A stretch of DNA of 64,000 nt from Nymphaea colorata (taxonomy: Eukaryota > Streptophyta > Magnoliopsida > Nymphaeales > Nymphaeaceae): NCBI RefSeq assembly GCF_008831285.2, contig NC_045144.1:7725886-7789885 (forward strand), read 5' to 3'. Positions 7,248-38,582 of the stretch are shown in pieces. Within the stretch, counting starts at the first letter, position 1. Each line of letters begins with the position of its first letter. The position numbers and the translations under genes are program-made. A model generated the notes under the pieces. It saw nothing but the letters and a program-made list of their open reading frames with translations, did not search any database and was not told where the DNA came from.

Positions 7248-7270
7248 GTTTTCAGCGAGTTGCTGAAAAC
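7248..7270 (-). promoter_or_regulatory. 3'-UTR hairpin of SERAT gene 1
   Basis: A perfect 9-bp stem (GTTTTCAGC with GCTGAAAAC) closes a 5-nt loop (GAGTT on the plus strand), about 100 nt downstream of the stop codon. The same stem core and the first three loop bases occur at nearly the same distance behind five other SERAT genes. An ATAAA-like A-rich signal follows within about 15 nt in mRNA sense, so the hairpin would sit just before the poly(A) site. Role unknown. Confidence 0.7.
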
Positions 7271-7368
7271 AAGGTACATTTACTGCCACCAGGCCCACTC
7301 TTTTATGTACAGAAGCTTTCAAACAGGGAAAACAAGAAGTCCACAACGAAAAGGAAAGCAGATGATGA

Positions 7369-8316
7369 CTAGATGACATAGTCAGACCACTGGGACACGA
7401 AGGAAGTATGGTCCATGGTGAAGCTTGGCACGTTGGTCAGCTTGATCGGCTTGTCCCTCCCGCACAGCAGCCTCGCCGGATTACCAACAGCAGTTGTCCT
7501 CTCCGGCACTTCCTTGAGCACGATTGAGCCGGCCCCAATCTTAGCCCCCGAACCAATCTTGATGTTTCCCAACACATGCGTTCCAGCACCCACCAGGACG
7601 CCGTCCCCAATTTTCGGATGCCGGTCTCCGTCCACCTTGCCGGTGCCCCCTAGCGTTACGTTGTGCAAGATCGACACATTGTCGCCGATGACGGCGGTCT
7701 CGCCGATCACAGTGCCGGTAGCATGGTCCAGCAGCACCCCCTTCCCGACCTGGGCTCCGGGATGTATATCCACGGTAAAGACCTCAGACACCCTGTTCTG
7801 GATGACGAGGGCCAGGGGCACCCTGCCCAAGGTCCAGAGCCGGTGAGCCGCCCGGTGGGACTGAATTGCCAGGAACCCTTTGAAGTTGAGCATGATCTGC
7901 ACGTAGCTCACACACGCTGGGTCCCTTTCTTTGATCGCCTTCAGGTCCTCTCGAACCTTGACGCCGATCGAGCGGTCCTCGAGGAACACCGCCAGGAAGA
8001 CGGCGGCGAGGCTGGGACCTGGCAGGGAGGTGGTGGCGAGCCGGTAGCCCAGATGGGTGGCCAGCGCGCTTTCGAGGGAGTCATGGGCGAGGATGGCAGA
8101 TACATAGTAACTGCCCAAGACGGGCTCTTGCTCCACATCCCTCCTGGCCTCCTCCTTCATCTTCAGCCAGAGGTCATCCCTCTCCCCGCTGTTGGTACAG
8201 CCGAAAGCCCTCGAGTACTCGACAAAGTTGTAAATGGTGGCCGGGTTAGCAAAGAGGGACGGGTCCACGTTGAACCTCGCCGTTCTGGCCTTGGAGCGCT
8301 CGACGCAGGTTGCCAT
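7369..8316 (-). CDS. SERAT: Serine acetyltransferase, SERAT gene 1 (subtype A)
   Basis: This intronless gene encodes a 315-aa serine O-acetyltransferase (EC 2.3.1.30), which makes O-acetylserine from serine and acetyl-CoA for cysteine synthesis. The N-terminal helical SAT domain (about residues 45-165) is followed by the left-handed beta-helix hexapeptide repeats (about 180-285). Residues matching E. coli CysE Asp143, His158, Arg192 and His193 are Asp183, His198, Arg232 and His233. The C-terminus ends in SDYVI, the Ile tail that docks into O-acetylserine(thiol)lyase in the cysteine synthase complex. No transit peptide is evident and the length fits cytosolic SERAT1, so a cytosolic location is inferred. 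The chosen ATG has a good context (A at -3, G at +4) and sits below a TATA box. The CDS is almost identical to gene 3 (I see two amino-acid changes: N/D in the TNSG motif near residue 42 and A/P at residue 10). Confidence 0.97.
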   Translation of the reverse strand: MATCVERSKARTARFNVDPSLFANPATIYNFVEYSRAFGCTNSGERDDLWLKMKEEARRDVEQEPVLGSYYVSAILAHDSLESALATHLGYRLATTSLPGPSLAAVFLAVFLEDRSIGVKVREDLKAIKERDPACVSYVQIMLNFKGFLAIQSHRAAHRLWTLGRVPLALVIQNRVSEVFTVDIHPGAQVGKGVLLDHATGTVIGETAVIGDNVSILHNVTLGGTGKVDGDRHPKIGDGVLVGAGTHVLGNIKIGSGAKIGAGSIVLKEVPERTTAVGNPARLLCGRDKPIKLTNVPSFTMDHTSFVSQWSDYVI

Positions 8317-8439
8317 TTTCTCTCGGTGGAACCTTAAACTTTTGGGGGTGTAGTTGCAGAAGGGAGGAGGATGGGTTTCTCGAAAAGAGAAGAAGCTCAG
8401 TAAGAAGGAGAAATCAAGTTCTGTAGAGGCTTGAGCCCT

Positions 8440-8601
8440 CTGTGGAGAGTTTATATGCGGCCGTGGAGCTTATATAGAGGAGGTTGAGGGGATGAATAGG
8501 TCAGCTTTTGGAGTTTTGACCCGTCATGTTAAAAGTATTATTCTATTCATTGCTTAAGAAGACGGGCTTGGCAAGGGTTGTGGGCGCTTCCTAGCTTCTT
8601 G
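8440..8601 (-). promoter_or_regulatory. SERAT gene 1 promoter (TATA box and GTGGGCG block)
   Basis: In minus sense a TATATAAG box lies at 8470-8477, about 155 bp before the ATG, and a second TATA-like word at 8450-8457. The conserved upstream block at 8578-8601 (plus strand TTGTGGGCGCTTCC followed by CTTG) recurs before all seven SERAT genes. Between TATA and ATG the word CTCTGTGGA (plus strand), expected near the transcription start, is also shared by all copies. Confidence 0.7.
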
Positions 8602-10715
8602 TGCTTGTTTCTTTGGATTAATATATTGAAAAGAGATTAGTTTGCTAACTATTTGCTTATTTCCATCCAAATTAAGTTGTACATGATTAAAAAAATAATA
8701 ATTTTATGGGTGAGGGGGAGGTTTATTCATTCTTCAAAAATCTCCTTGTTCTTCTTTGTGCACCCTTTAATTTGAAATAATATCCATAGAAATCTAATTA
8801 GAGATATTCAGACCCTTACCCTAATCACCTGTCCTAGAATTATTATTTCCATTAACTTTAGTTATACCAAATGGAATTTATGCATTAGTTGTAGCCAGGT
8901 GTGTTGGGGGTGATCATTTCTTGCACGAACAACTTTAAGGAACAAAAAACTATAGATTTTTAATATATGCTACATCTTTTTCTTCAAATTTTCACGATGA
9001 TGATAAATGTTTCATTTACCATATAAAAGTAGAGCCCAAGTTGTCGTCTAATCCTTCGTCCCAAAAGCATATAAAGTCATTCGTTTTGAGTGCTGCTTTT
9101 ACCGTGTTCAACTTGTTCGGCAGCTTCTATGAATATATTGAACAAGTGATCGCCATTTTCTTCGACAACAGTTGCGGTGATACATACTTTCTTGGTGCTC
9201 CCTTTGACAAGCAATGGCGTTCGACATGTGGGACCGTTCAATCGGAGGCTAAATTTGATGAGCTCATGCCTTACGCAGGTGCATATTTTTATGAGCAATT
9301 CTTTATAAAACAAATTAAGATTTTCATTTATGTAACAAAAAGATTTTCTAACAAGCGCTAAGTTCTACATAATATCAACATCACGAGCGATTAATTATTC
9401 ATTCATCGTTATCATCTTCGCGTAAGCATTTCCTTTTCTGGCCTTTGTTTGATAACCAGGCAACAAGGCAAAGATTTTGGTTAAAAATTATAAGGTAACA
9501 AGGGTTTGCTTTTCTTGTTCAACGTTCTAATTAAGTAGAAGTTCTTTATTTTTTAAACCTTACGCAAGGGCATGCTCTCGCTTTGTTTAAGCATTGAGCC
9601 GATAAAATGAGAATATATAATAAAATTTGGGGACAAGAGGTCTCCTAAGTACATCTGCAAAAAACAAACCGTAAAAACAGAATTAGGAAGAGGAAATATA
9701 CAATACAATGCACAGAAAAATAAGAGAGAGAGGAAAGGCAGTGCGGCACAGTCACCCAGTCGCAGACGGACAGCGGCGCTTCAACCGAATGGCAAACTGG
9801 CGCTTTATTTAAGCGTGGAGGGTTTTACTTTCTCTCTACCATCAATCAAACAAAGCAAAAGTTTTACTAGATAAAAGAATACTTTCTCTAAAGGATTTTC
9901 TTGGAATCAAACGTTCTAGGGACACATTATTTCATAAAACAAATATATAGTTGGATGGCTGGAAGAGATTTTGGAAATTTTCCGAGTGCTTGGTACCCAT
10001 AAGTGATTCATTTTCAGGTGTAGTATGTATCCATCGTTTGATTATTAATTTGGGTGGCGATATTATTATAATTTTTTTTCTTATTACTTCCAATAGCATT
10101 GGAATCTGCATTACCTTTTTTTTTTGTTTGGTGAAATACATGGCAATAATATTCATGACTTGAGATAGATGTTCTCCCACTCTATATCAAGGAAGCTTAT
10201 GATGCAACTTGTAGCAAAAAAAAAATGGTAATAATTTTTTCATTGTATTGACACGGCTAGAAGATGGTGCTATTGAGGAACATGAGATAGACATCGGTGG
10301 GTTCGAGTCGAGCCCAAGTTGCAAAGATTGGTGAGAATCCAATTCCTCCGCAAGGCTCGTCCACATAGGGTGACTCAGGGCCTAAGATCAGGCCGAAAGG
10401 CGTAGTCTATGGACAACAGGCTTACTCTTTGTAGGTCGCTAGATCTGGTATGCCCTTCAAATTCACAAATAAAGCACTCTTTCTCTATAGCATTTGAGGT
10501 TTGTATTGCTTGCCTTTGATGACTCTTTCTCTTCCATCTTGCTAAAGTATCCTCCTACGCTGCATATGTTCAGATCCATTTGCTTGCACAAAGTTCGTGC
10601 ATGTGTATATTATATTATATTTGCATGCAGATCGTACCAATGTTCACATATCTTACCCATACATGGAATAAAAAAAATCATACACTAAAGTTTTTAAGAA
10701 GGTGGATATTTTGAG
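8602..10715. other. Array spacer 1 with a segment duplicated in spacer 3
   Basis: No gene is recognised. Segment 9173-9365 clearly resembles 16912-17092: both share the word CTCATGCCTTACGCA, a GTGGGAC/GTGGGACAT context and a similar AT-rich tail. The two lie about 0.85 kb upstream of the nearly identical SERAT genes 1 and 3. This is part of the evidence that the array grew by duplication of gene-plus-spacer units. Confidence 0.5.
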
Positions 10716-11060
10716 GTCGGCTGACGATTCTATAGAAGTATATACACAATGTACAAAGACTGCTCATTGGGCACTTGCGAAGCCCAGCAAGCTGACAAAA
10801 ACGAGCAGTTTGCGATTTGGGGAATGAATAATGGAGAGCTCTTTGTTATATTCGTGGGCTTATCATCTTCCTGTGTTGGCCTACTGATAAAGTCTGGCCT
10901 ACGATTAAGGTATTTCCTCCAACAATGGAGGTTCGCCCGTTGTTTCGAGTCCACAGATATCAGAAGCAGCACATTGTTTCTCCCTTGAGGTCATCCGTGT
11001 AAATCTCCTGATCTTCAATAATGTGGAACAGATGCCAAACGCAAAAGGATCTTTAGTAGA
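10716..11060. repeat. Spacer block D, copy 1 (between SERAT genes 1 and 2)
   Basis: This block shares ordered words with 18665-18965 and 28500-28880: an AAGCTGACAAA word, a CAACAATGGAGGTT word, a pair of imperfect GTGGGCT/GTGGACT motifs, then GAGGTCATCC. All three copies lie about 2.3-2.6 kb upstream of a subtype A SERAT start codon. I find no intact ORF common to the copies, so the block is better read as duplicated spacer than as a gene. Confidence 0.5.
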
Positions 11061-12073
11061 ACGAGATATTAATCTTAAGGCAACTGGGACTGAAGTAAGT
11101 TTTTTTTTTTTTCCAAAAAAAAAAAGATATGGCTTTAATAACTTTTTGTCCTCAACATAAAGATAAATCGATATGAAAGAAGACGTTTTTGTGTAGTGAA
11201 AATTGGGTTGACGTGTGTTTGATGAAGGAATAACTTTTACGATGTTGAGGTAAAAACTTTTTCCTCTAATAGCAGCTTTAAGAAGCTTCAGAATTTGCAG
11301 GGCAAATAACAACAGTTTTTCATGCATAAGGACCTCAACTTAACTTCAAATTTGGCTAAAACTCAAGATTCGACGAAGGCATCCAGAGTTCAGACTTCTG
11401 GTGCTTAGCTATTATAGTGGGGAGATAGTGATAAAGGAAGGAGAGTGAAGATGGTAAGAGGAGAATCTAAGGATATCAAGTGGAAAACCCTGGACAAGTA
11501 AACTCTACCATTATGTTTCCAGACAGTTTTCTTGGTGTTGTCCTCATAAGCCATGCAAGATCATTAGAGCATCTCCTTGTTACAGTGCAATCCCCAATTG
11601 AGAAAAACTTACTGTCATCTTGAAACTTCTTGAGGTGCTCTGGTCCTTCAAAATTTTGCCTCAATCGTTTCTACTTATGTTCAATGGGTTCAAATATAAG
11701 ATTAGGGAGAACTTGAACAACATTATCACACAGGCATGATTTCTACATTTCTTCAATAAAATGACAAACAAAGAAGATCAGTGTCCTGTTGATATGGCAG
11801 CTCATTGTCGGGTCGAGCTTCATGAGATTGGATAGAGTTTTCCTTGCCTCATGGGTTCATCAACCAAAGGATTAGCACATTAACGTTTGAGCTACGCCTA
11901 CTGTATACCATTCTTAAAAGAAATATAAGTATCGGCAGAGTGCGATCTTCAGCTTCTTGATTCTTCTATGTTTGGAGTACCCGGTTTTGCTTCATCCTGC
12001 TCAGGTGATTTGGAGAGAGAGAGAGAGAGAGAGAGGGGCTACCCAAGAAAGATATATTCTTCATTACAGAAAA
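11061..12073. other. Array spacer 2 before SERAT gene 2
   Basis: No gene is recognised. Segments around 11325-11400 and 11940-12010 have recognisable counterparts at about 19550-19610 and 19860-19920 (shared words near GCATAAGGA, GGCTAAAACT and GATCTGC/GATCTTCAGCTT). A (GA)n run of about 18 bp lies at 12016-12034. Confidence 0.4.
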
Positions 12074-12094
12074 TTTTCAGCGAGACGCTGAAAA
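12074..12094 (-). promoter_or_regulatory. 3'-UTR hairpin of SERAT gene 2
   Basis: An 8-bp stem (TTTTCAGC with GCTGAAAA) closes the 5-nt loop GAGAC, about 95 nt beyond the stop codon. It has the same stem core and loop start as the hairpins behind genes 1, 3, 5, 6 and 8. Confidence 0.7.
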
Positions 12095-12189
12095 AAAAAG
12101 AGTATGTACACCGGCCATTCCTCACGAGGGAAAAAGAAAATGAAAGAGCTCTATAAGAAAAAACAGGGAGAAACACAAGCCAAATTTTG

Positions 12190-13143
12190 TCAGATGACAT
12201 AGCCTGACCACTCATAGGTATGGTCCATTGTGAGGCCCGGGATCTTGGTTAGCTTGATGGGGTTGTCCCTCCCACCTAGCAACCTCGCCGGGTTCCCTAC
12301 CGCAGTTGTCTTCTCCGGCACCTCCTTCAGGACGATCGAACCAGCTCCGATCTTTGCGCCGGCACCAATCTTGATATTGCCCAAGACGTGTGTCCCAGCA
12401 CCCACCAGCACACCATCACCAATTTTCGGGTGCCGGTCGCCTGTGGCCTTGCCGGTACCTCCGAGCGTCACGTTGTGCAAGATGGACACGTTGTCGCCGA
12501 TGACAGCAGTCTCGCCGATCACGGTTCCAGTAGCATGGTCCAGCAGCACTCCCTTCCCAATCCTCGCACCTGGGTGTATGTCCACAGCAAAGACCTCAGA
12601 CACCCTGTTCTGGATGACCAAGGCCAAGGGCACCCGGCCCATGAGCCACAGCCGGTGAGCCACCCGCTGCGCCTGAATTGCTAGGAACCCCTTGAAGTTG
12701 AGCATGACCTGCACGTAGCTGACACATGCTGGGTCCCTTTCCTTGATTGCTCTCATGTCTTCCCGGACCGCGGCGCGAATGCTGCGGTCTTCGAGGAACG
12801 CCGCCAGGAAGACCTCGGCCAGGTTCTGGCCGGGCAAGTAAGGTGTGGCGAGCCTGTAGCCTAGGTGAGTGGCTAGAGCGCTCTCCAGGGAGTCGTAGGC
12901 AAGGATTGAGGATATGTAGTAACTGCCCAAGACGGGCTCTTTCTCTACATCCTTCCAGGCCTCCTCCCTCATCTTCAACCAGAGGTCATCCCTGTGCTCC
13001 TCATTGTTCGCACGCCGGTAAGCCGTCGATAGCTCGACGAACTTGTAAATGGTGGATGGATCGGCAAAGAGGGGTCGGTCCAAGTTGAATGGCAGCGGCT
13101 TTGCCGCCATTCCGGACGTCAATTGCTCTATGCAAGCGGCCAT
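12190..13143 (-). CDS. SERAT: Serine acetyltransferase, SERAT gene 2 (subtype B)
   Basis: This intronless gene encodes a 317-aa serine O-acetyltransferase. The SAT N-terminal domain spans about residues 50-170 and the hexapeptide beta-helix about 185-290. Catalytic counterparts of CysE Asp143, His158 and His193 are Asp188, His203 and His238. Compared with subtype A, the N-terminus differs (MAACIEQL...GMAAKPL) and the tail is EWSGYVI. Gly314 replaces the Asp found at this position in genes 1, 3, 5, 6 and 8 and in the stub near 20 kb, within the segment that binds O-acetylserine(thiol)lyase. The terminal Ile is kept. The CDS is nearly identical to gene 4 (I see two amino-acid differences, K15T and R127Q in gene 4), yet the flanks differ. 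A cytosolic enzyme is inferred because there is no obvious targeting peptide. Confidence 0.97.
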   Translation of the reverse strand: MAACIEQLTSGMAAKPLPFNLDRPLFADPSTIYKFVELSTAYRRANNEEHRDDLWLKMREEAWKDVEKEPVLGSYYISSILAYDSLESALATHLGYRLATPYLPGQNLAEVFLAAFLEDRSIRAAVREDMRAIKERDPACVSYVQVMLNFKGFLAIQAQRVAHRLWLMGRVPLALVIQNRVSEVFAVDIHPGARIGKGVLLDHATGTVIGETAVIGDNVSILHNVTLGGTGKATGDRHPKIGDGVLVGAGTHVLGNIKIGAGAKIGAGSIVLKEVPEKTTAVGNPARLLGGRDNPIKLTKIPGLTMDHTYEWSGYVI

Positions 13144-13249
13144 CTCAGTGGGGAGCTTTCTACAGGGATGGCTGTAAAGAAGGCGAGAGTTTTTAGATGG
13201 GGAAGAGCAAGGTTAAGCAGAAGGATCCTTGTAGAGGCTGAAGCACTCT

Positions 13250-13461
13250 GTGGAACTCTGGAGATGGACGTGGAGTATATATAGAGGAACAAGGGGAAGC
13301 ACATGGCCAGGGGATGAGTCCAGTTTTCAGAGACAGGGACTCAACACCTAGAAATTATCTAGAACTCGTGGACCTGAGTTATTTCTGCGTGGAAACAGAC
13401 ACTGTAGCTTTCTTTTTTTTTCCCCTTTTATAAAAAATTGTGGGCGTTTCCCAGCCTCTTG
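13250..13461 (-). promoter_or_regulatory. SERAT gene 2 promoter
   Basis: The TATA box (minus sense CTATATATA) is at 13276-13284, about 135 bp before the ATG, with the shared CTCTGTGGA word near the expected transcription start. The conserved TTGTGGGCGTTTCCCAG block lies at 13438-13461. A further conserved word, TGGACCTGAG at about 13369, is shared with genes 4 and 6. Confidence 0.7.
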
Positions 13462-15057: not shown

Positions 15058-15074
15058 TTCAGCGAGATGCTGAA
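15058..15074 (-). promoter_or_regulatory. 3'-UTR hairpin of SERAT gene 3
   Basis: A 6-bp stem (TTCAGC with GCTGAA) closes loop GAGAT, about 83 nt past the stop codon. In mRNA sense ATAAAGAAT follows within about 10 nt, a plausible poly(A) near-upstream element. Confidence 0.65.
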
Positions 15075-15157
15075 GGTAGCTTATGTTACCACCACCACTC
15101 TTACATGTACAAAAAGCACGCGAGGAAAAATGGCGAAAAACAAGGAACAGATGATGA

Positions 15158-16105
15158 CTAGATGACATAGTCAGACCACTGAGACACGAAGGAAGTATGG
15201 TCCATGGTGAAGCTTGGCACGTTGGTCAGCTTGATCGGCTTGTCCCTCCCGCACAGCAGCCTCGCCGGATTACCAACAGCAGTTGTCCTCTCCGGCACTT
15301 CCTTGAGCACGATTGAGCCGGCCCCAATCTTAGCCCCTGAACCAATCTTGATGTTTCCCAACACATGCGTTCCAGCACCCACCAGGACGCCGTCCCCAAT
15401 TTTCGGATGCCGGTCTCCGTCCACCTTGCCGGTGCCCCCTAGCGTTACGTTGTGCAAGATCGACACATTGTCGCCGATGACGGCGGTCTCGCCGATCACA
15501 GTGCCGGTAGCATGGTCCAGCAGCACCCCCTTCCCGACCTGGGCTCCGGGATGTATATCCACGGTAAAGACCTCAGACACCCTGTTCTGGATGACGAGGG
15601 CCAGGGGAACCCTGCCCAAGGTCCAGAGCCGGTGAGCCGCCCGGTGGGACTGAATTGCCAGGAACCCTTTGAAGTTGAGCATGATCTGCACGTAGCTCAC
15701 ACACGCTGGGTCCCTTTCTTTGATCGCCTTCAGGTCCTCTCGAACCTTGACGCCGATCGAGCGGTCCTCGAGGAACACCGCCAGGAAGACGGCGGCGAGG
15801 CTGGGACCTGGCAGGGAGGTGGTGGCGAGCCGGTAGCCCAGATGGGTGGCCAGCGCGCTTTCGAGGGAGTCATGGGCGAGGATGGCAGATACATAGTAAC
15901 TGCCCAAGACGGGCTCTTGCTCCACATCCCTCCTGGCCTCCTCCTTCATCTTCAGCCAGAGGTCATCCCTCTCCCCGCTGTCGGTACAGCCGAAAGCCCT
16001 CGAGTACTCGACAAAGTTGTAAATGGTGGCCGGGTTAGCAAAGAGGGACGGGTCCACGTTGAACCTCGCCGTTCTGGGCTTCGAGCGCTCGACGCAGGTT
16101 GCCAT
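15158..16105 (-). CDS. SERAT: Serine acetyltransferase, SERAT gene 3 (subtype A)
   Basis: This is a 315-aa intronless serine O-acetyltransferase with the same domain order and catalytic residues as gene 1 (Asp183, His198, Arg232, His233) and the tail SDYVI. Along the whole CDS I count only about seven nucleotide differences from gene 1, including synonymous sites. The identity continues through the 5' leader to about the TATA region and then falls away, and the 3' UTRs differ clearly outside the hairpin. This pattern suggests recent gene conversion or a very local duplication rather than duplication of the whole flanking segment. No premature stop or frameshift is present, so the copy should be functional. 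Confidence 0.97.
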   Translation of the reverse strand: MATCVERSKPRTARFNVDPSLFANPATIYNFVEYSRAFGCTDSGERDDLWLKMKEEARRDVEQEPVLGSYYVSAILAHDSLESALATHLGYRLATTSLPGPSLAAVFLAVFLEDRSIGVKVREDLKAIKERDPACVSYVQIMLNFKGFLAIQSHRAAHRLWTLGRVPLALVIQNRVSEVFTVDIHPGAQVGKGVLLDHATGTVIGETAVIGDNVSILHNVTLGGTGKVDGDRHPKIGDGVLVGAGTHVLGNIKIGSGAKIGAGSIVLKEVPERTTAVGNPARLLCGRDKPIKLTNVPSFTMDHTSFVSQWSDYVI

Positions 16106-16234
16106 TTTCTCTCGGTGGAACCTTAAACTTTTGGGGGTGTAGTTGCAGAAGGGAGGAGGATGGGTTTCTCGAAAAGAGAAGAAGCTCAGTAAGAAGGAGA
16201 AATCAAGTTCTGTAGAGGCTTCAGCCCTCTGTGG

Positions 16235-16374
16235 AGAGTTATACGCGGCCGTGGAGCTTATATAGAGGAGGTTGAGGGGGTTCGATCATCGATAGGTCAG
16301 CTTTTGAGGCGTTGGGAACCTTCATGCTAAATTGATTCCCCAGAAAGGAATTGTGGGCGGTTCCAAGCGTCTTG
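16235..16374 (-). promoter_or_regulatory. SERAT gene 3 promoter
   Basis: The TATA box (minus sense TATATAAG) is at 16258-16265, about 155 bp before the ATG. The conserved block TTGTGGGCGGTTCC is at 16351-16374 and ends in CTTG. The downstream part is nearly identical to that of gene 1, while sequence upstream of the block is not. Confidence 0.7.
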
Positions 16375-18143: not shown

Positions 18144-18220
18144 AACAAAGGTGCTTTTGGCCAGCTCCATTTGCTTGTACACATATATTATATCTTACAT
18201 AAAAGACCATATTAATTTTC

Positions 18221-18664: not shown

Positions 18665-18965
18665 AAAACGTGAAGATTTTGAGGTGCGCTACTATAATAA
18701 AAGTCCCCCGACAAAAGAGTACAGCTCGTCGTGCCTTTGCCAGATCCAGCAAGCTGACAAAAGACGAGCAATTTGCAACGAAAGGGATGAATGAATATAG
18801 AGAACCAGGTGATCAGTTTTGTCCTTCTAATATGGCGCTTCCTCCAACAATGGAGGTTAGCCCATAGTTTGGAGTCCATAGATTGATGCAGAAGCCCACT
18901 GTTTATCCTATGGGGTCATCCATGCATGAAATTGTACTGGTCTTTGAATAATGCACTGAAATGCT
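18665..18965. repeat. Spacer block D, copy 2 (between SERAT gene 3 and the stub)
   Basis: The block carries the ordered words AAGCTGACAAAAGACGAGCA, CAACAATGGAGGTT, two imperfect RTGGGCT motifs and GGGTCATCC, as in block D copies at 10716 and 28500. It lies about 2.6 kb upstream of the gene 3 start codon. Confidence 0.5.
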
Positions 18966-19920
18966 AAGAGGCTTTCAAATTGAAGGAGATATAATATAAT
19001 TAAGGCATGTGGGATGGAAGAACTGAACTTCCTACCCGTATATTGAAAGTAAAAGAAATATAAGTTCAATAGTAAACTCTCCCTCCTTAATTATCTAGAG
19101 ATAAATTGCTAGGAAAGGAGACACAGGCCCATATTGAATTGAAGATAGAATATGTTGCCCTAAAAGTGTGGTGAAAGCCATCCTCAAGGAGTTGGTCAGT
19201 CGGGATCGTGTAGAGGTTCGATACTTTGTGCTGCAAATGAGAAACCACCAACATGCAAGTTGAACCACTACAAGAATGAAATCTCAAGGTACTCATGCAT
19301 GTCCTCCACTCCAAGGGATGAAGAGGGGTGGAAGTTTTGACCTTCTTCGAATGATAGGTGAAACCCCACTCATCCAAAACTGTGGTGGAAGTCTACTGTG
19401 GTGGAAGTCTACCAATGCTAAGTATAAGAATATTGATTTCAATTTTCCTCTATTAGCTAACATTAGCTTTCAAGTACTTAAGCCCGGCTGAGGAAGAGTT
19501 ACGGGGAATAACTTGGCAGGGAAACCAAGAGAAGCTCTTCCCCGCATAAGGAACCCAACCTTGACATGTAAATATATGGCTAAAACTTGAGCCATCCAAA
19601 GCTCAGAGCGTTTTGATGACTGGCAATACATGATAGTACTGATGAGGAATGTAGAGGTAGTCGAGTCAAAAAGCTGTGATATAAGCCTCAACATCTCTCG
19701 ATTGGACACGACCATGAAAAACTAAAGCTCTAAACTTACGAGCCGTCCAGGCTTCGAGTGCCCATGAAACAACCAAAAGCTTGGCACATTTGGGCAGGGC
19801 CAACAAATAACTAGTTAACTATAAGATCCAAGAACTGCAGCTAGGCTTCCTACTTCCAGACTGAGATCTGCTTTTCTGCTTCAACTGTTGAGTACTCAGG
19901 TGGCATTTAGACAGAGATGT
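18966..19920. other. Array spacer 3, second half
   Basis: No gene is recognised. Segments near 19550-19610 and 19860-19920 match spacer 2 in the same order. This supports a collinear duplicated unit that ends at the SERAT stub. Confidence 0.4.
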
Positions 19921-20092
19921 CAATGCACTTCTCAAGAAAGATTTCTTCGTTAAACTTTTTAGCGAGTCGATCGAGAGAAGGTATACGTACACTGCCCACT
20001 CTTGAGGATGAGGAGGGCGCCAGAAAAACGCCTAAAAAGTGAACACACTCTCAGAAACACAAGCAGGTTAGCTAGATGACATAGTCCGACCA
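19921..20092 (-). pseudogene. SERAT stub: 3' flank and last six codons only
   Basis: The codons for W-S-D-Y-V-I and a TAG stop are intact at 20072-20092, in the same frame and spacing as in the functional genes, and preceded on the plus strand by sequence like the subtype B 3' UTR. That UTR includes a decayed hairpin (AGCGAGTCG near 19960) and a GTACACTGCCCACTC word like that of gene 2. Homology stops abruptly at the Trp codon. This looks like the collinear B gene of the second duplicated unit, deleted except for its end. It keeps Asp where genes 2 and 4 have Gly. Confidence 0.75.
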
Positions 20093-22016
20093 CGTTTAGA
20101 ATCACTTTTTTATGATAAATTCAGGATTAAAATATATTTCGTAAATTCCTTAGTAACTTCAACATCTTATTCCAATATGGTCAACAATGTTTTCCAAAAT
20201 AACTACTGTCTACTGCTAAAGTTAGTTTCATAAAATTTGCAGGGTAGAATAAGAAGCAAGCTTTGGAAGCCATGTTGATGCATGTGCCATTTATCCTCAT
20301 CTTTAGCAACACAAAAACCACATCTGCTTCTGGGAAGCTGAATGCAGTTGATGACCTTGAATCCATTTTTTGGAGCTTTGCTGCCTCGGTGAACACACAA
20401 CTGCAGTGGATCTTCCACACGTACATGATTTGCATCTGTTTCTTCCCAACTTCTTTAAGAAAAACTTTATCCATGGTGCAGAAATGTATAAACCTTATTG
20501 ACATGCTAAAGAGTCTCTTAAATTCTTGGCTTTCCTCTCTTCAGTTACGTTAAAACTCACGATCTCATGGGCATAATGACCTGTAGCGATCTAGATCTCC
20601 TCAAACTCACAACTATGGACAAAGCCACAAAGAGTGTAGCTGTGGAACATAATCGCTGTGACAAAAAATTTAAAAAGTATGTAATTAAGACTGCTCTTAT
20701 TGATTTTTCTACTATTTTTTATATGCGATTCATTCCTTTCTTCATTTGTAGGGCAAGGAATTACATATTTTGCATGGTATGATTGATAATGAGGAATCAT
20801 TCAAAACCCAGTATTTTTTGTTCTTCACGGGGCAAAAATCGCTTATGTAGTATGGTGAAAGAATGACAAAGTTGTAATACATAAAGGATTTCACAACTAT
20901 TCACTGCAATTATCTTCCTTCCTATCTAAGAGATAATCCTTGTTCCAGTTGCAAGGAGTCTCATGGGCCACTACTGTAGCTGTCGTATGTGCTTCCAAAT
21001 TCAATCTCAATTGGTTCATGTTTATCCTTCCTGTGAATGTCTTATTGGTCCTTAATTTGAAAGCAAATCCAGTTACAACTTCGTGTTCCTATAGTTAGCT
21101 TTCACATATGAGATGCTTTAGGCTCATTTTCCAACTCCCTTTCCTTGCCGATGATTATATATCTTTTATATTCTTTGAGTATCAGATTACTGAGCCTGTT
21201 TCAGTTTGACGTGCTAATTTTGTAACAGGAGGGGCATAACCAACATTAAAATCAGGATAAGCGAGGGAGAGTGGGATGAAACCAATATTGACGTAGGTAT
21301 AGAACTAATTCCAGTATTGTATACAATATTGCTCTCTAATCACATGAAATTTTTTTTATCATGTGGGTCCATTTATATAAAATTGTAACTGATTTTAACG
21401 AAGAAATGGTCTTTCCACCCATGCTCACTACGTAGAAACATAATGTTCAAGAATCAAACTAAAAAGTTATCTTTATTAAGCTCCTAGCCGGACCACCTAA
21501 ACTGGCACTTAAGAAAATTACCACACTCTGACAATTCATTTGTAGACAAGTCCATCATCCGTAAAATCAAGAACTAAAAAATCTCAAGCTTTAGTAATTA
21601 TAGGGCAACTCAATTTCTAGACAGGGTTCCATGAAATTTCCATGCCTGGTGGCTCCAAGTAACTGCCAAAGAATTGGTTATTTAGAAAAGGTCAAATAAA
21701 TTCAAACCTCGTTAATCTTAGAAATTGAATTGACGACTTCAATGGAGGGCAGCTTCAACCTTTCATAATATTCGAGATGGTAAGCGAAATAAACCGTATG
21801 CCAAAAAATTGCACCATTCTTCGAGAAATAACGATAACGGAAACTAAAAAAACTGCTGAAACAATGAGATCTTCAGCTTTCCGGTTACTACTCTGTCCTG
21901 AGTACACGGTTTCACCAAATCCATCCTTATTTCTCCATGTGAACCTTACAAAGCATATGTACACTGCCTGCTTTTCAGACAAAAAGTCTTACAAAAAAAA
22001 ACAGAGAAAATTTTTA
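20093..22016. other. Spacer between the SERAT stub and gene 4
   Basis: No confident gene. An ORF cluster at 20203-20504 (minus) has weak coding character but no family I can defend. The stretch 21840-21990 is the 3' flank of gene 4 and aligns loosely with that of gene 2 (GATCTTCAGCTT, GAGTACACGG, CATATGTACACTGCC), but the hairpin present behind the other genes is missing here. Confidence 0.4.
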
Positions 22017-22970
22017 TTAGATGACATAGCCTGACCACTCGTAGGTATGGTCCATTGTGAGGCCCGGGATCTTGGTTAGCTTGATGGGGTTGTCCCTCCC
22101 ACCTAGCAACCTCGCCGGGTTCCCTACCGCAGTTGTCTTCTCCGGCACCTCCTTCAGGACGATCGAACCAGCTCCGATCTTTGCGCCGGCACCAATCTTG
22201 ATATTGCCCAAGACGTGTGTCCCAGCACCCACCAGCACACCATCACCAATTTTCGGGTGCCGATCGCCGGTGGCCTTGCCGGTACCTCCGAGCGTCACGT
22301 TGTGCAAGATGGACACGTTGTCGCCGATGACAGCAGTCTCGCCGATCACGGTTCCAGTAGCATGGTCCAGCAGCACTCCCTTCCCAATCCTCGCACCTGG
22401 GTGTATGTCCACAGCAAAGACCTCAGACACCCTGTTCTGGATGACCAAGGCCAAGGGCACCCGGCCCATGAGCCACAGCCGGTGAGCCACCCGCTGCGCC
22501 TGAATTGCTAGGAACCCCTTGAAGTTGAGCATGACCTGCACGTAGCTGACACATGCTGGGTCCCTTTCCTTGATTGCTCTCATGTCTTCCTGGACCGCGG
22601 CGCGAATGCTGCGGTCTTCGAGGAACGCCGCCAGGAAGACCTCGGCCAGGTTCTGGCCGGGCAAGTAAGGTGTGGCGAGCCTGTAGCCTAGGTGAGTGGC
22701 TAGAGCGCTCTCCAGGGAGTCGTAGGCAAGGATTGAGGATATGTAGTAACTGCCCAAGACGGGCTCTTTCTCTACATCCTTCCACGCCTCCTCCCTCATC
22801 TTCAACCAGAGGTCATCCCTGTGCTCCTCATTGTTGGCACGCCGGTAAGCCGTCGATAGCTCGACGAACTTGTAAATGGTGGATGGATCGGCAAAGAGGG
22901 GTCGGTCCAAGTTGAATGGCAGCGGCGTTGCCGCCATTCCGGACGTCAATTGCTCTATGCAAGCGGCCAT
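22017..22970 (-). CDS. SERAT: Serine acetyltransferase, SERAT gene 4 (subtype B)
   Basis: This is a 317-aa intronless serine O-acetyltransferase with catalytic Asp188, His203 and His238, intact hexapeptide repeats and the tail EWSGYVI (Gly at the fourth position from the end, as in gene 2). It differs from gene 2 at two residues and about seven nucleotides. Identity with gene 2 ends about 25 bp upstream of the ATG and near the stop codon, so nearly all the similarity is confined to the coding region. It is the only intact member without the conserved 3'-UTR hairpin, and its distal promoter carries a triplicated 62-71 bp segment. Regulation may therefore differ from that of gene 2 although the proteins are almost the same. 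Confidence 0.97.
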   Translation of the reverse strand: MAACIEQLTSGMAATPLPFNLDRPLFADPSTIYKFVELSTAYRRANNEEHRDDLWLKMREEAWKDVEKEPVLGSYYISSILAYDSLESALATHLGYRLATPYLPGQNLAEVFLAAFLEDRSIRAAVQEDMRAIKERDPACVSYVQVMLNFKGFLAIQAQRVAHRLWLMGRVPLALVIQNRVSEVFAVDIHPGARIGKGVLLDHATGTVIGETAVIGDNVSILHNVTLGGTGKATGDRHPKIGDGVLVGAGTHVLGNIKIGAGAKIGAGSIVLKEVPEKTTAVGNPARLLGGRDNPIKLTKIPGLTMDHTYEWSGYVI

Positions 22971-23079
22971 CTCAGTGGGGAGCTTTCTACAGGGATTAGT
23001 GATGGAGAGATTTCGGAGGGAGAAGAGGTACCTAGGCTTAGCAGAAGGATCCTTGTGGAGGCTGGAGCCCTCTGTGGAA

Positions 23080-25271: not shown

Positions 25272-25288
25272 TTCAGCGAGCTGCTGAA
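25272..25288 (-). promoter_or_regulatory. 3'-UTR hairpin of SERAT gene 5
   Basis: A 6-bp stem (TTCAGC with GCTGAA), extendable by a G:U pair in the plus-sense fold, closes loop GAGCT, about 88 nt beyond the stop codon. In mRNA sense CTATAAAGGATTTTC follows. Confidence 0.65.
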
Positions 25289-25376: not shown

Positions 25377-26324
25377 TTATATGACGTAGTCGGACCACTG
25401 GGTCAAGAAGGAGGTCCGGTCCATGGTGAAGCCCGGCATGCTGGTTAGCTTGATGGGCTTGTCTCTCCCACATAGCAACCTCGCCGGGTTCCCAACTGCA
25501 GTGCTACTCTCCGGCACTTCCTTCAGCACGATTGAGCCAGCCCCAATCTTAGCACCAGCCCCGATCTTGATGTTCCCTAGTACATGGGTACCAGCACCCA
25601 CCAGCACCCCATTCCCAAGTTTCGGGTGCCGGTCCCCATTCGCCTTGCCGGTACCCCCTAGCGTCACGTTATGCAAGATCGACACGTCGTCGCCGATGAC
25701 CGCAGTCTCCCCAATCACAGTGCCGGTAGCATGGTCCAGCAGCACTCCCTTCCCGACCTGGGCGCCGGGGTGTATGTCAACAGCAAAGACCTCGGACACC
25801 CTGTTCTGGATGACCAGCGCCAAGGGCACCCGGCCCATGGTCCAGAGCCGGTGAGCCACCCGGTGGGACTGAATTGCTAGGAACCCTTTGAAGTTGAGCA
25901 TGACTTGCACGTAGCTAGCACATGCCGGGTCCCTTTCCTTAATTGCTTTCAGGTCAGCCCGAACCTTGGCCCCGATTGCACGGTCTTCCAGGAGCACGGT
26001 CATGAAGACTGCAGCAAGGCTGGAACCAGGCAGGGAGGTTGTGGCGAGCCTATAGCCCAAGTGGGTGGCCAGTGCGCTCTCAAGTGAGTCATGGGCAAGT
26101 ATGGCGGCTATGTAGTAACTGGCCAAGACAGGCTCTTGCTCCACATCCTTCCTGGCCTCCTCCCTCATCTTCACCCACAGTTCATCCCTCTCCTCATTGT
26201 TGGCATGGCTAAAAGACCTTGAGTACCCCACGAAATCGTAAATGGTGGGATCAGCATACATGGGCATTGGGTCCACGTTTAACCCTGCCATTACAGACCT
26301 TGAGCTGTCTATGCAGGTTGCCAT
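25377..26324 (-). CDS. SERAT: Serine acetyltransferase, SERAT gene 5 (subtype A)
   Basis: This is a 315-aa intronless serine O-acetyltransferase of subtype A, clearly diverged from genes 1 and 3, mainly in the first 60 residues and in the helical domain. Catalytic Asp183, His198 and His233 are present and the tail is SDYVI. Asp213 replaces the Asn found in the other copies (IGDDVS against IGDNVS) in the beta-helix. The start codon context is strong (AAAAAATGGC). It forms the A member of the third A-B pair with gene 6. A cytosolic SERAT1-like enzyme is inferred. Confidence 0.97.
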   Translation of the reverse strand: MATCIDSSRSVMAGLNVDPMPMYADPTIYDFVGYSRSFSHANNEERDELWVKMREEARKDVEQEPVLASYYIAAILAHDSLESALATHLGYRLATTSLPGSSLAAVFMTVLLEDRAIGAKVRADLKAIKERDPACASYVQVMLNFKGFLAIQSHRVAHRLWTMGRVPLALVIQNRVSEVFAVDIHPGAQVGKGVLLDHATGTVIGETAVIGDDVSILHNVTLGGTGKANGDRHPKLGNGVLVGAGTHVLGNIKIGAGAKIGAGSIVLKEVPESSTAVGNPARLLCGRDKPIKLTSMPGFTMDRTSFLTQWSDYVI

Positions 26325-28499: not shown

Positions 28500-28880
28500 T
28501 ACCTGACCTAGTTGACAAAAATCAAGTTCCAATTTGGGGGGTGAATTTGAAAAGAGACAGAGAGATGAGGAAAAGAACTCTTGTTGTCTCTTGCATGTGG
28601 GCTTGTCTCCTACCGCTGGTGGCTGGGGATTCAGCCTGTGAGGGCAGCACTTTCTTTCCTTTTTGTTTGGCTGCTGGTTATTAACTATTGTTTTCCTTTC
28701 TCTTCTTCCTTGGATTCCTACTCTCTTCTCCACCTGCTGTGGACACCTACGCTTTATGTACGAAAGAGATGGAGTTAGCCCCATGTTTTGAGCCCACAGT
28801 TTGCTCTAGGAGCCCATTGTTTCTGTTTTGCCTGAGGTCATCCATGCATATCGCCTGCTCTTGATCAACGAGAAATAATA
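28500..28880. repeat. Spacer block D, copy 3 (between SERAT genes 5 and 6)
   Basis: The block carries TTGACAAAAATCA, a GATGGAGTTAGCCC word, three GTGGGCT/ATGGGCT motifs (minus sense) and GAGGTCATCCATGCAT, in the same order as copies 1 and 2. Its distance from the upstream A-type start codon (about 2.4 kb) also matches. The copy is the most diverged, as expected if genes 5 and 6 belong to an older unit. Confidence 0.45.
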
Positions 28881-29038
28881 GACGCCAAAAGGAGATACAA
28901 CCACTTGCAATGATAAAATCGGCTTCAACACTTGCATGGCAGCAGGGATGGTGGTTTATAGTCTTATCTTTTTAACTCGATTGATTGTCATCTATATCAT
29001 ATACACTGTTTAAATCACACCTATTAAAAATCAAACAA

Positions 29039-29104
29039 CTAAACCCGACCAACTATGCTATGCCTCTCGAGCTAAACCCGACCAACTATGCTATGCCTCT
29101 CGAG
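29039..29104. repeat. 33-bp tandem duplication
   Basis: Two exact copies, 29039-29071 and 29072-29104. Confidence 0.93.
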
Positions 29105-30128: not shown

Positions 30129-30180
30129 ATATATAGATATATATATATATAAAGAAAGAGAGAGAGAGAGAGAGAGAGAG
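30129..30180. repeat. (TA)n/(GA)n microsatellite
   Basis: Short TA runs are followed by about 24 bp of GA dinucleotides, just beyond the predicted 3' end of SERAT gene 6. A GA run lies in the same position behind gene 2 (12016-12034). Confidence 0.9.
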
Positions 30181-30218
30181 CACTACCCAAAAAAAGGTTA
30201 TATTCTTCATTTACGTAC

Positions 30219-30239
30219 CTTTCAGCGAGCCGCTGAAAG
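30219..30239 (-). promoter_or_regulatory. 3'-UTR hairpin of SERAT gene 6
   Basis: An 8-bp stem (CTTTCAGC with GCTGAAAG) closes loop GAGCC, about 106 nt past the stop. The outermost pair is C:G here where genes 2 and 8 have T:A, a paired change that keeps the stem. Confidence 0.7.
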
Positions 30240-30344
30240 TAAAGTCTAATTTACAACACCGGCCTCTTGAAGGGGGAACAAAAATTACAAGTGTCTCGGA
30301 AAGAAAAAGAGAAAAACACGACGCATAACGCAAGCAAGTTTTTA

Positions 30345-31298
30345 TTAGATGACATAGTCTGACCACTCGTAGGTATGGTCCATCGTAAGGCTCGGAATAT
30401 TGGTTAGCTTGATCGGGTTTTCCCTCCCACCAAGCAGCCTGGCCGGGTTACCTACCGCGGTCGTCTTCTCCGGCACCTCCTTGAGCACGACCGAACCCGC
30501 CCCGATCTTCGCCCCGGCACCAATCTTGACGTTACCTAGAACATGCGTTCCGGCACCCACTAGCACACCGTCGCCAATTTTCGGGTGCCGGTCACCGGTG
30601 GCCTTGCCGGTACCTCCGAGCGTCACGTTATGCAAGATCGACACGTTGTCGCCGATGACAGCAGTCTCGCCGATCACGGTTCCAGTAGCATGGTCCAGCA
30701 GCACCCCGTTCCCGATCCTAGCGCCGGGGTGTATGTCCACGGCAAAGACCTCGGACACCCTGTTCTGGATGACCAAGGCCAAGGGCACCCGGCCCCTCAG
30801 CCACAGCCTGTGAGCCACCCGCTGCGCCTGAATTGCTAGGAACCCCTTGAAGTTGAGCATGATTTGAACGTAGCTGACACAGGCTGGGTCCCGTTCCTTG
30901 ATTGCTCTCAGGTCTTCTCTGACTGCGGCCCGGATGGCGCGGTCTTCCTGGAGCACGGCCAGGAAGACCTCGGCCAGGTTCGAACCAGGCAGAGAAGGCG
31001 TGGCGAGCCTGTAGCCCAGATGGGTAGCCAGTGCGCTCTCGAGTGAATCATGTGCAAGGATAGCTGATATATAGTAACTGCCCAAGACGGGCTCTTGCTC
31101 CACATCCTTCCTGGCCTCCTCCCTCATCTTCGCCCACAGTTCATCCCTGAGCTCCTCACTGTTGACACGCCGGAAAGCCGTCGATAGCTCGACGAACTTG
31201 TAAATGGTAGACGGATCAGCAAAGAGGGTTTGGTCCAAGTTGAACGACAGCGGCTTCGCGGCCATTCCGGACCTCAGCTGCTCGATGCATGCCGCCAT
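30345..31298 (-). CDS. SERAT: Serine acetyltransferase, SERAT gene 6 (subtype B)
   Basis: This is a 317-aa intronless serine O-acetyltransferase. Asp188, His203 and His238 are the catalytic counterparts. The tail is EWSDYVI, so this B member keeps Asp where genes 2 and 4 have Gly. Asn appears in IGNGVLLDHATG where the other copies have Lys (IGKGV), five residues before the catalytic Asp-His pair. It is diverged from genes 2 and 4 throughout and has its own promoter, so it escaped the homogenisation seen between those two. The N-terminus (MAACIEQLRSGMAAKPL) is not transit-peptide-like in length, and a cytosolic location is inferred. Confidence 0.97.
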   Translation of the reverse strand: MAACIEQLRSGMAAKPLSFNLDQTLFADPSTIYKFVELSTAFRRVNSEELRDELWAKMREEARKDVEQEPVLGSYYISAILAHDSLESALATHLGYRLATPSLPGSNLAEVFLAVLQEDRAIRAAVREDLRAIKERDPACVSYVQIMLNFKGFLAIQAQRVAHRLWLRGRVPLALVIQNRVSEVFAVDIHPGARIGNGVLLDHATGTVIGETAVIGDNVSILHNVTLGGTGKATGDRHPKIGDGVLVGAGTHVLGNVKIGAGAKIGAGSVVLKEVPEKTTAVGNPARLLGGRENPIKLTNIPSLTMDHTYEWSDYVI

Positions 31299-31399
31299 CT
31301 TTGTGAGGAGCTTTTACAGGGATTGCTGTAAGGAAGGTCTGGTTGTGGAAGCTAAAGGAAGGAGCAAGGCCGGACAGAAGGTTCCCTGTGGAGTTAGGA

Positions 31400-31618
31400 G
31401 CCCTCTGTGGAACTGTGGAGACAGCGGTGGAGTTTATATAGGAGAAGGAGGAGGTGGAGACTGTGAGGAGATAAGTTTGCTTTAAAGGCACTGGGACCCT
31501 GCGTCTTCAAGTTATTAAATAACTCATGGACCTGAGTCATTCTTGCTCGGGGGAGAGATTGATGCCTATTTTTTCTTCTCTATTTTATAATGAATTGTGG
31601 GCGGCTCCAAATGTCTTG
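31400..31618 (-). promoter_or_regulatory. SERAT gene 6 promoter
   Basis: The TATA box (minus sense TATATAAA) is at 31433-31440, about 140 bp before the ATG, followed by CTCTGTGGAACTGTGG (plus strand) near the start site. The conserved block ATTGTGGGCGGCTCC is at 31594-31618, and TGGACCTGAG at about 31528 is shared with genes 2 and 4. Confidence 0.7.
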
Positions 31619-33860: not shown

Positions 33861-34173
33861 CAGGAAAACCTCGGCCATGTTCTGGCCGGGCAAGTAAGGT
33901 GTGGCGAGCCTGTAGCCCAAGTGAGTGGCTAGAGCGCCCTTGAGTGAGTCGAACGCGAGGATTGAAGATATGTAAGTAGCTGCCCGAGGGGGGCTCTTTC
34001 TCCATATCCTTCCAGGCCTCCTCCCTCATCTTCAACCAGAGGTCATCCCTGTGGTCCTCATTGTTGGCACGGCGGTAAGCCGTCGATAGCTCGACGAACT
34101 TGTAAATGGTGGAAGGGATCGGCAACAGATGTCTGTCCAAATTGAATGGCAGCGGCTTTGCCTCCATTTCGGA
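33861..34173 (-). pseudogene. Internal SERAT fragment (subtype B), broken
   Basis: The fragment matches about codons 13-113 of genes 2 and 4 on the minus strand (for example KPLPFNLD, TIYKFVELSTAYRRANNE and DDLWLKMREEAWKD are readable). The authentic start codon region and everything after the helical domain are missing, including the whole catalytic beta-helix. At least two small insertions shift the frame: one near 33975, and one near 34113 in the segment matching FADPSTIY. Both ends are abrupt. It cannot make an enzyme. It sits between genes 6 and 8, where another array member once stood or where a fragment was inserted. Confidence 0.9.
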
Positions 34174-37227
<3,054 letters not shown>

Positions 37228-37248
37228 TTTTCAGCGAGATGCTGAAAA
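37228..37248 (-). promoter_or_regulatory. 3'-UTR hairpin of SERAT gene 8
   Basis: An 8-bp stem (TTTTCAGC with GCTGAAAA) closes loop GAGAT, about 86 nt beyond the stop codon. In mRNA sense GATAAAAGGATC follows within about 10 nt. Confidence 0.7.
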
Positions 37249-37333
37249 AGAGGCACAACGCCACCCACTTTTGGAAAAGGAAGAAAGCATAAAAAGCAAA
37301 TAACCAGGACCAAAACCAGTCTTATAAACCTTG

Positions 37334-38281
37334 TTAGATCACATAGTCTGACCACTCATAAGTCTGGTCCATGGTGAAGCTGGGCACCTTGGTCAGCTTC
37401 ACCGGGTTCTCCCTTCCGCCCAGCAACCTCGCCGGGTTCCCAACTGCAGTGGTGCTCTCCGGCACCTCCTTCAGCACCACCGAGCCCGCCCCAATCTTGG
37501 CCCCAGCACCAACCCTGACGTTGCCCAATACATGCGTCCCGGCGCCCACTAGGACCCCGTCGCCGATTTTCGGGTGCCGGTCTCCGACGACCTTGCCGGT
37601 GCCGCCAAGTGTCACATTGTGCAGGATCGACACGTTGTCGCCGATAATTGCAGTCTCGCCAATCACGGTCCCGGTAGCATGGTCCAGCAGCACACCCTTC
37701 CCGACCCGGGCACCGGGGTGTATGTCCACAGCAAAGGCCTCAGACACCCTGTTTTGGATAACCAAGGCCAATGGCACCCGGCCCATGAGCCACAGCCTGT
37801 GAGCCACCCTGTGCGCCTGGATCGCTAGGAACCCCTTGAAGTTGAGCATGATTTGAACGTAGCTGACACAGGCTGGGTCCCTTTCCTTAATTGCTTTCAG
37901 GTCTTCCCGGACTTCGGCCCCGATGGCGCGGTCCTCTGAGAACACGGCCTGGAAGACTTGGGCTAGGTTCGGACCAGGCAGGGAAGGTGTGCCCAGCCTG
38001 TAGCCCAGATGGGTGGCTAGGGCACTCTCAAGTGTGTCATGTGCAAGTATTGCAGAAACATAGTAACTACCCAACAGAGGCTCCTCCTCCACATCTTTCT
38101 TGGCTTCTTCCTTCATCTTCGTCCACAGCTCATCTGCCTGAGTCTCATTGCGGCCATGGCTGAATGCCTGCGAGAATTCATGAGCCAAGTTGCAAATGGT
38201 GGTGTCCGGCTTATCGAGCTGGGACTCGAAAGAGAGCAATTTTCCGGCCATGCCGGACCTCGAGAACTCACAGGCTGCCAT
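37334..38281 (-). CDS. SERAT: Serine acetyltransferase, SERAT gene 8 (most divergent copy)
   Basis: This is a 315-aa intronless serine O-acetyltransferase at the far end of the array. I number it 8 because the pseudogene fragment stands as member 7. Catalytic counterparts are Asp186, His201 and His236, and the tail is EWSDYVI. The first 45 residues differ from both subtypes A and B, and several beta-helix substitutions (for example AIIGDNVS and NVRVGAGAKIGAGSV) are private to it. Codon use is the most GC-rich of the set. It shares the promoter block and the 3' hairpin, so it descends from the same ancestor. Being the transcriptionally most upstream copy with the greatest divergence, it may be the oldest lineage in the array (inference). 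Cytosolic location is inferred. Confidence 0.97.
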   Translation of the reverse strand: MAACEFSRSGMAGKLLSFESQLDKPDTTICNLAHEFSQAFSHGRNETQADELWTKMKEEAKKDVEEEPLLGSYYVSAILAHDTLESALATHLGYRLGTPSLPGPNLAQVFQAVFSEDRAIGAEVREDLKAIKERDPACVSYVQIMLNFKGFLAIQAHRVAHRLWLMGRVPLALVIQNRVSEAFAVDIHPGARVGKGVLLDHATGTVIGETAIIGDNVSILHNVTLGGTGKVVGDRHPKIGDGVLVGAGTHVLGNVRVGAGAKIGAGSVVLKEVPESTTAVGNPARLLGGRENPVKLTKVPSFTMDQTYEWSDYVI

Positions 38282-38374
38282 GGGACCTCTCTAGAGAGCT
38301 TCAAGCACAGGGAGGGAGAGGAAGGGGAAGAGAAAGAAAAGAGCAAATCTTGAAGAGGGTGATGCCTCTGTGGA

Positions 38375-38582
38375 ACTTTTGAAGTTGGTCTAGGGGCTTA
38401 TATAGGGAAAGGATGAAAGAGGGTCAGAGAGTTGTTAAGGGATAAACTCAGTTGATTTGTAAACACATTTGGGACTCAACAGAAATTGAATTTATTAATA
38501 ACTTAATGAACTTAAAGTAATTGTCCTTGGGAGTGGACATTGGGAATCTTTTCTTAAAGAATTGTGGGCTCCCAACAGCTTG
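38375..38582 (-). promoter_or_regulatory. SERAT gene 8 promoter
   Basis: The TATA box (minus sense TATATAAG) is at 38398-38405, about 120 bp before the ATG, and CCTCTGTGGAACTTTTG (plus strand) lies near the start site. The upstream block at 38561-38582 is shorter than in the other genes (ATTGTGGGCTCCCAACAG), lacking the central GGTT. Confidence 0.65.

Follow-up and report, generated by a model that had tools for sequence, protein, structure and literature searches.

In plants, the serine acetyltransferase (SERAT, also SAT) step, with which cysteine synthesis begins, is normally limited by feedback and by the complex of SERAT with O-acetylserine(thiol)lyase (OASTL). Here we describe a tandem array of SERAT genes in a 64,000-nucleotide stretch of the Nymphaea colorata genome (the window) and compare it with the closest described systems. 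One of these is plant SERAT group 2 (Arabidopsis SERAT2;1 and SERAT2;2, grape VvSERAT2;1 and VvSERAT2;2, and tobacco), with which the array shares its family, an (E/Q)WSDYVI-type tail and the active-site motifs; the Arabidopsis group-2 genes are presumably intronless, with an N terminus resembling that of the array copies. The array differs from group 2 as known in having eight copies together, two adjacent tail classes, a palindrome in the 3' untranslated region (3'UTR) and conversion between copies. OASTL-binding SERATs (groups 1 and 2) are reported to carry the tail motif EWSDY(V/I)I ending in Ile (PMC4330696), and the tail to close the active site on cysteine binding and to dock into OASTL (PMC8786284, PMC4330696). 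The SAT families described in soybean, Cardamine, tea, rice, Arabidopsis, tomato and grape belong to the same enzyme family and have one-exon as well as intron-bearing members, with published counts of 4 in grapevine and tomato, 5 in Arabidopsis, 6 in rice, 7 in tea, 8 in Cardamine and 10 in soybean. The soybean family is described as having segmental duplications and no tandem ones, in contrast to the eight-copy array here, and the seven tea genes as spread over six chromosomes, as against 15 one-exon copies here with eight in one array. Tandem growth within the same pathway is likewise reported for the potato OASTL cluster (PMC11641898), with 7 of 11 genes on one chromosome and four tandem pairs; there, however, it is the partner enzyme that has multiplied, whereas in N. 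colorata the growth concerns the enzyme of the committing step, and OASTL is found at four clear and two doubtful loci. We found no plant SERAT tandem array in the openly licensed literature, a weak absence from a search that did not extend to the palindrome, and the words 'serine' and 'sulfur' do not occur in the main text of the N. colorata genome paper.

The window, which is free of N, corresponds to C7:7725886-7789885 (contig NC_045144.1) of the 407.8 Mb assembly of 783 contigs (GCF_008831285.2). Between 7369 and 38281 it holds seven intact intronless SERAT open reading frames (ORFs) of 315-317 codons, all on the minus strand and head to tail. Three belong to a class with a full-length tail (class A: S1, 7369-8316; S3, 15158-16105; S5, 25377-26324), three to a class with three tail residues fewer (class B: S2, 12190-13143, and S4, 22017-22970, both with a WSGYVI end, and S6, 30345-31298, with the canonical EWSDYVI end), and the seventh, S7 (37334-38281), branches separately and has a short tail like that of class B. 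All seven keep ERDPAC, VDIHPG, LLDHATG, GDRHPK and the C-terminal Ile, and the five copies scanned (S1, S2, S5, S6 and S7) match Pfam SATase_N (E 2e-33 to 4.3e-36) and Hexapep; S3 and S4, which were outside the scan, share 99% identity with S1 and S2, respectively. The soybean SAT structure PDB 4n69 aligns over the enzyme core and the tail (E 5.4e-110 for S1 and 3.4e-107 for S6), its tail (PGESMDHTSFIS...) being closer to those of two paralogs outside the array, C6a and C1, than to the array, and S6 lacks three of its tail residues. Among the matches listed from bacterial genomes and viral contigs, a set without plants, there were only distant CysE relatives, 45-57% identical (the best 80 of 566 in one search and 22 of 22 in the other).

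These results bear out what a sequence-only reading of the window had proposed, namely seven full-length intronless copies head to tail on one strand, each with the active-site motifs and the terminal Ile. The array as then drawn was nevertheless incomplete, since an eighth intact copy, P0 (C7:7724088-7725017), lies on the opposite strand and stops 868 bases short of the window, in tail-to-tail orientation to S1 and 8.2 kb from the S1 stop; around P0, the repeat check found only simple repeats of note. The earlier account of the copies also overlooked the two tail classes, and two pairs whose near-identity hardly extends beyond the coding sequences (CDSs). As to its two remnants, the one at 33861-34173 on the minus strand (r34k; the 5' part of a class B gene, codons ~10-112, with a frame break) is certain as a SERAT remnant on its homology match (nhmmer E 6e-80). 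The other, r20k (19900-20093, minus strand, low-coordinate edge approximate), comprises last codons and a decayed B-type 3'UTR and is weak as coding sequence: its coding part (20072-20093) is marginal by itself (nhmmer E 0.2), and it is supported by its 3' flank, which can be aligned to the class B 3'UTRs and contains an apparent decayed palindrome.

We consider it probable that the array is an old SERAT tandem amplification, shaped by duplications of an A-B unit, by purifying selection and by in-class gene conversion, which furnishes O-acetylserine under split feedback. Growth would have proceeded mainly by repeated duplication of this two-gene unit, with the copies held functional by selection and expressed as enzymes. 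Class A would retain ordinary cysteine feedback and OASTL binding, feedback on the short-tailed class would be weakened, and both classes together would raise and diversify the O-acetylserine supply under shared control.

The age of the array and the selection on it can be read from the divergence of its copies. The nonsynonymous to synonymous ratio (dN/dS) is 0.10-0.18 in all 21 window pairs, a range at which the array copies are under purifying selection, and the synonymous divergence (dS) of these pairs is 0.48-0.88, except in S1/S3 (0.017) and S2/S4 (0.022). P0 differs from the other array copies at dS 0.83-1.15, and the array from the C8 copies at 0.77-1.21. An alternative is that the array expanded neutrally by unequal crossing-over, with no net rise in flux and most copies redundant in the midst of birth and death. 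The two remnants, the lack of the 3'UTR palindrome in S4 and the altered tails of five paralogs outside the array (C8a, C8b, C2, C6a and C1) all speak for it. We nonetheless regard it as unlikely, for eight array ORFs have stayed intact at dS up to 1.15 and the window copies hold to the low dN/dS just given, whereas neutral simulation to 0.1 substitutions per site left no ORF intact when indels were allowed (0 of 2000 runs) and 8% of them intact when they were not. Because the copies diverge far beyond that simulated distance, seven intact ORFs are not a matter of chance. The promoters also argue against neutral decay. The motif TCCACAGAG, at which transcription is predicted to start, occurs seven times in the window and nowhere else in it, once per gene, on the gene strand and 29-30 nt after a TATA box (8438-8446 on the minus strand for S1; starts at 13246, 16227, 23070, 26452, 31403 and 38366, also minus, for S2-S7). 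It was not found within 400 nt upstream of P0 or of the seven non-array paralogs. The sulfur-response core GAGAC, searched on both strands, is scattered, with none within 1 kb of S1 or S7.

The order of the genes in the window is A B A B A B, followed by S7. A diverged segment of 73-79% identity recurs in each of the three A-to-B spacers (10914-10999, 18839-18924 and 28769-28862) and speaks for an A-B unit that was duplicated repeatedly. In the tree, the eight array copies form one clade (support 100/98), class A is recovered at 100/98 and S2, S4 and S6 group at 97/96. The array, the C8 copies and the C2 copy (100/99) split from three group-1-like genes (99/97), and it is from this split within the genome, in a tree that holds no reference group-2 sequence, together with the known sequences of that group, that we would assign the array to SERAT group 2. 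The remnant r20k occupies the position expected for the middle unit's B gene, and the 3'UTR of S4 resembles that of r20k for a stretch before diverging ahead of the palindrome. The simplest reading would be that the r20k gene, before it decayed, gave rise to S4 by tandem duplication and that S4 lost the palindrome at the breakpoint.

Superimposed on this history are two cases of sequence homogenization. The CDSs of S1 and S3 are separated by 6 differences in 948 positions, and the 127 nt leading up to the ATG by a single one, but the aligned sequence beyond these has 40 in 138 positions and the 3'UTR 39 in 103 (Fisher p 3e-32 for CDS versus upstream and 1e-36 for CDS versus 3'UTR). For S2 and S4 the count is 7 in 954 coding positions, as against 113 of 379 upstream of -27 (p 2e-58). 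Since the flanks of both pairs are recognisably homologous yet diverged (~30%), the CDSs must have been overwritten recently. Judged from these alignments, the process is gene conversion, with tracts that stop almost at the CDS ends: 7359-8480 on the S1 side, with its partner at ~15148-16270 in S3, and 12190-13169 on the S2 side, with its partner at ~22017-22996 in S4 (minus strand; edges approximate). It would have spared most of the promoters and the 3'UTRs. A tract of near-identity between diverged homologous flanks, the mark by which we recognised concerted evolution, was found in 2 of the 21 pairs, and the similar dS of the two would fit a single in-register pairing of two A-B units. Trees of the flanks (FastTree) agree in part, placing S1 with S3 and S2 with S4 upstream, with neither pair sisters in the 3'UTR. 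Several other routes to the same pattern were considered. Segmental duplication of S1-S2 to give S3-S4 was rejected, as the spacers and flanks are not near-identical. Purely mRNA-mediated conversion is disfavoured for S1/S3, whose tract extends as far as the TATA box, ahead of the site at which transcription is predicted to begin, and is conceivable for S2/S4. Conversion between classes is not claimed; a run-length permutation gave p<0.05 in 3 of 20 pair tests (0.043, 0.045 and 0.007, uncorrected). That the 99% identity within S1/S3 and S2/S4 reflects an assembly artefact, the pairs being haplotypes or misjoined repeats, is very improbable, given flanks that differ by ~30%, an N-free window and a dS of at least 0.48 in all other pairs, which is unlike haplotypes. 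The conversion tracts point to selection, or a mechanism, that keeps the enzymes alike while their promoters and 3'UTRs diverge.

The tails bear on how the copies may be regulated. After the conserved tail Met there are 14 residues in S1, S3 and S5 and 11 in S2, S4, S6, S7 and P0; outside the array, there are 14 in six of the seven paralogs and 17 in C6a. Because six of the seven non-array copies have the 14-residue tail, the short tail is most simply seen as derived. A tobacco group-2 SERAT with a deletion of three tail residues is reported to be nearly insensitive to cysteine, to about the degree of the tailless grape VvSERAT2;1 (PMC4330696), and the reported half-maximal inhibitory concentration of cysteine is 1.9 mM for this grape enzyme versus 0.188 mM for VvSERAT2;2. 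The five short-tailed array copies likewise have three residues fewer, the likeness to tobacco drawn here being one of deletion length. A division of labour, suggested in the sequence-only reading as one by tissue, can thereby be given a more concrete form, that of two tail classes, the short one matching the tobacco enzyme as reported in deletion length. Several points, however, weigh against a clean release from feedback. The five short-tailed copies group at a support of 79/83, so an origin by a single deletion is not firm. None of the seven window copies has lost the tail Met, which by residue numbering is presumably the one tied to cysteine sensitivity in PMC4330696. The short-tailed class may thus still be cysteine-inhibited, and full insensitivity is not assured. 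Furthermore, the C termini read QWSDYVI in S1, S3 and S5, EWSDYVI in S6 and S7, EWSGYVI in S2 and S4 and WCDYVI in P0; the strictly canonical form is confined to S6 and S7, and OASTL binding by S2, S4 and P0 may be weakened.

A second feature that the array genes hold in common lies in their 3'UTRs. The palindrome TTCAGCNNCTCGCTGAA stands 84-108 nt 3' of the stop in 6 of the 7 window genes (7251-7267 for S1, 12076-12092 for S2, 15058-15074 for S3, 25272-25288 for S5, 30221-30237 for S6 and 37230-37246 for S7, all on the minus strand), or in 7 of 8 array genes when P0 is counted, where it follows the stop by 112 nt with a single substitution by which a C-G pair becomes U-G. With S4 excluded, 15 of its 17 columns are invariant, compared with 11 of 112 other gap-free 3'UTR columns (Fisher p 6e-11). 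A window scan allowing up to two mismatches returned nine matches, six of them exact and three that are the same sites read in reverse complement, where shuffles averaged 0.10. Across the 408 Mb of the assembly the exact sequence occurs six times, always in the array, and its reversed control not at all. As we estimate that letters alone would give ~1 match in 408 Mb, the telling point is the presence of six in one array and not their absence elsewhere. The palindrome was not found within 400 nt of any of the seven non-array paralogs (best 5-7 mismatches), and Rfam gave no match in the window at the curated gathering score, a permissive search not having been made. In 6 of 7 cases an ATAAA- or AATGAAG-like stretch follows it (AATGCAG in P0), so the palindrome may adjoin a poly(A) signal.

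We suggest that the palindrome probably acts as an mRNA hairpin, which near such a signal would place the array under common post-transcriptional control. It may instead be a DNA site, or an RNA site recognised by its sequence, a tentative reading to which we give somewhat less than an even chance and which is compatible with the rest of the explanation that we favour. The two are hard to separate, as the stem columns are nearly invariant and conservation of structure cannot be distinguished from that of sequence. Covariation is thin (one outer pair changed on both sides, from U-A to C-G, in two sequences) and its score is reached in 26 of 500 shuffles, and the minimum-energy fold of S5 lacks the hairpin, all of which would suit a non-hairpin site; the U-G pair kept by the change in P0 and the U-A to C-G replacement itself favour a hairpin, as does stem pairing, since 96.4% of cells pair, versus 25-50% when the stem is slid. 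Common control by a hairpin has further points against it: S4 is without the palindrome though its CDS is intact, and in 6 of 7 copies the 3'UTR folds are not unusually stable (z +0.70 to -1.43, with S3 at -2.93). The palindrome, whose exact form is confined within the assembly to the array, is a specific candidate regulatory element that would be new.

The array is part of a wider set of SERAT genes. The assembly contains 15 intact one-exon SERATs, eight of them in the C7 array and seven elsewhere (two on C6, one each on C1 and C2, and three on C8 that lie within 115 kb of one another). C9 has exon-like matches as well, of which two out of three contain a stop, in the pattern expected of an intron-bearing gene. 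The long ORFs are open in all 15, and 13 keep all four short motifs tested, RDPAC being altered to RDPAW in C8b and to RDPSC in C6a. The unusual SERAT dosage that had been claimed is therefore supported and larger than first stated, with 15 copies as against the published 4 to 10. A cysK-family search (TIGR01139) started from 29 candidates and matched 17 pieces. Exon series mark four clear OASTL loci (C1, C3, C9 and C12), and two further loci are doubtful, C8 with a single piece (E 4.5e-13) and C244, where the piece has three in-frame stops. The ratio of SERAT to OASTL is thus ~15 to 4-6, with the OASTL figure a lower bound, as counts of large families are in such a search; with that caution it is opposite to the counts published, by other methods, for Arabidopsis (5:9), rice (6:12), tomato (4:8) and Cardamine (8:13). 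An earlier guess that the genes serve the making of beta-substituted alanines is unsupported, since extra OASTL-like synthases would be expected and four clear loci, at least, were found.

SERATs that outnumber the OASTL loci found would be odd if all served cysteine synthesis, and one may ask if some array members acetylate a substrate other than serine, as is suspected for group-3 SERATs (PMC4330696). This is quite improbable, because the residues named for catalysis and serine binding (Asp96, Asp147, Asp161, His162, Arg196 and His197 in N. gonorrhoeae numbering; PMC8786284) are kept in all seven window copies, as mapped by hand on alignments with Asp147 equated with E. coli Asp143 by counting along the alignment. 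A bolder version of the explanation that we favour would be an array for O-acetylserine overproduction, in which short-tailed SERATs largely free of feedback and of pairing with OASTL, outnumbering OASTL in the genome, share control by a new, array-specific 3'UTR stem-loop. We hold this to be doubtful; if true, O-acetylserine would be a product or signal itself, beyond its role as a cysteine precursor. The genome, in which few OASTL loci stand beside 15 intact one-exon SERATs and a single array holds both tail classes, offers a natural experiment on the purpose of the brakes on this step.

Outside the array, a WSDYVI end is found in C8c and C6b only, and the ends of C8a, C8b, C2, C6a and C1 deviate. 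The copies at C8:8373081-8487950 make up a second, looser cluster of three (one on the plus and two on the minus strand) with 14-residue tails, C8b ending in WIEYEI. Homeology between the C7 array and this cluster is not supported by one gene; the listed paralogs of the DnaJ neighbour described below include none near the C8 cluster. The paralog at C2:33620835 has a CSDDVI end and is extended at its N terminus, perhaps by a transit peptide, and that at C1:27668896 has an altered tail with an LLAEFAG end and no Ile. The cysK-like piece at C244:25619-26413 covers 268 model positions without introns and with its three stops is perhaps a decayed retrocopy or contamination.

Elsewhere in the window, positions 53120-53652 form a near-perfect palindrome of ~530 bases, 95.6% self-complementary, that is foldback-like or resembles a miniature inverted-repeat transposable element and has CG-rich 20-base repeats. 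ORF pieces at 45222-47045 on the minus strand resemble a B-type response regulator; the Response_reg match on 46557-47045 is weak (E 0.0045, below the curated cut-off), and the piece at 45222-46055 contains a 66-base tandem repeat. At 57368-59518, also on the minus strand, lies a single-exon DnaJ-DUF3444 gene with a zinc ribbon, whose best paralog is on C2 (44%).

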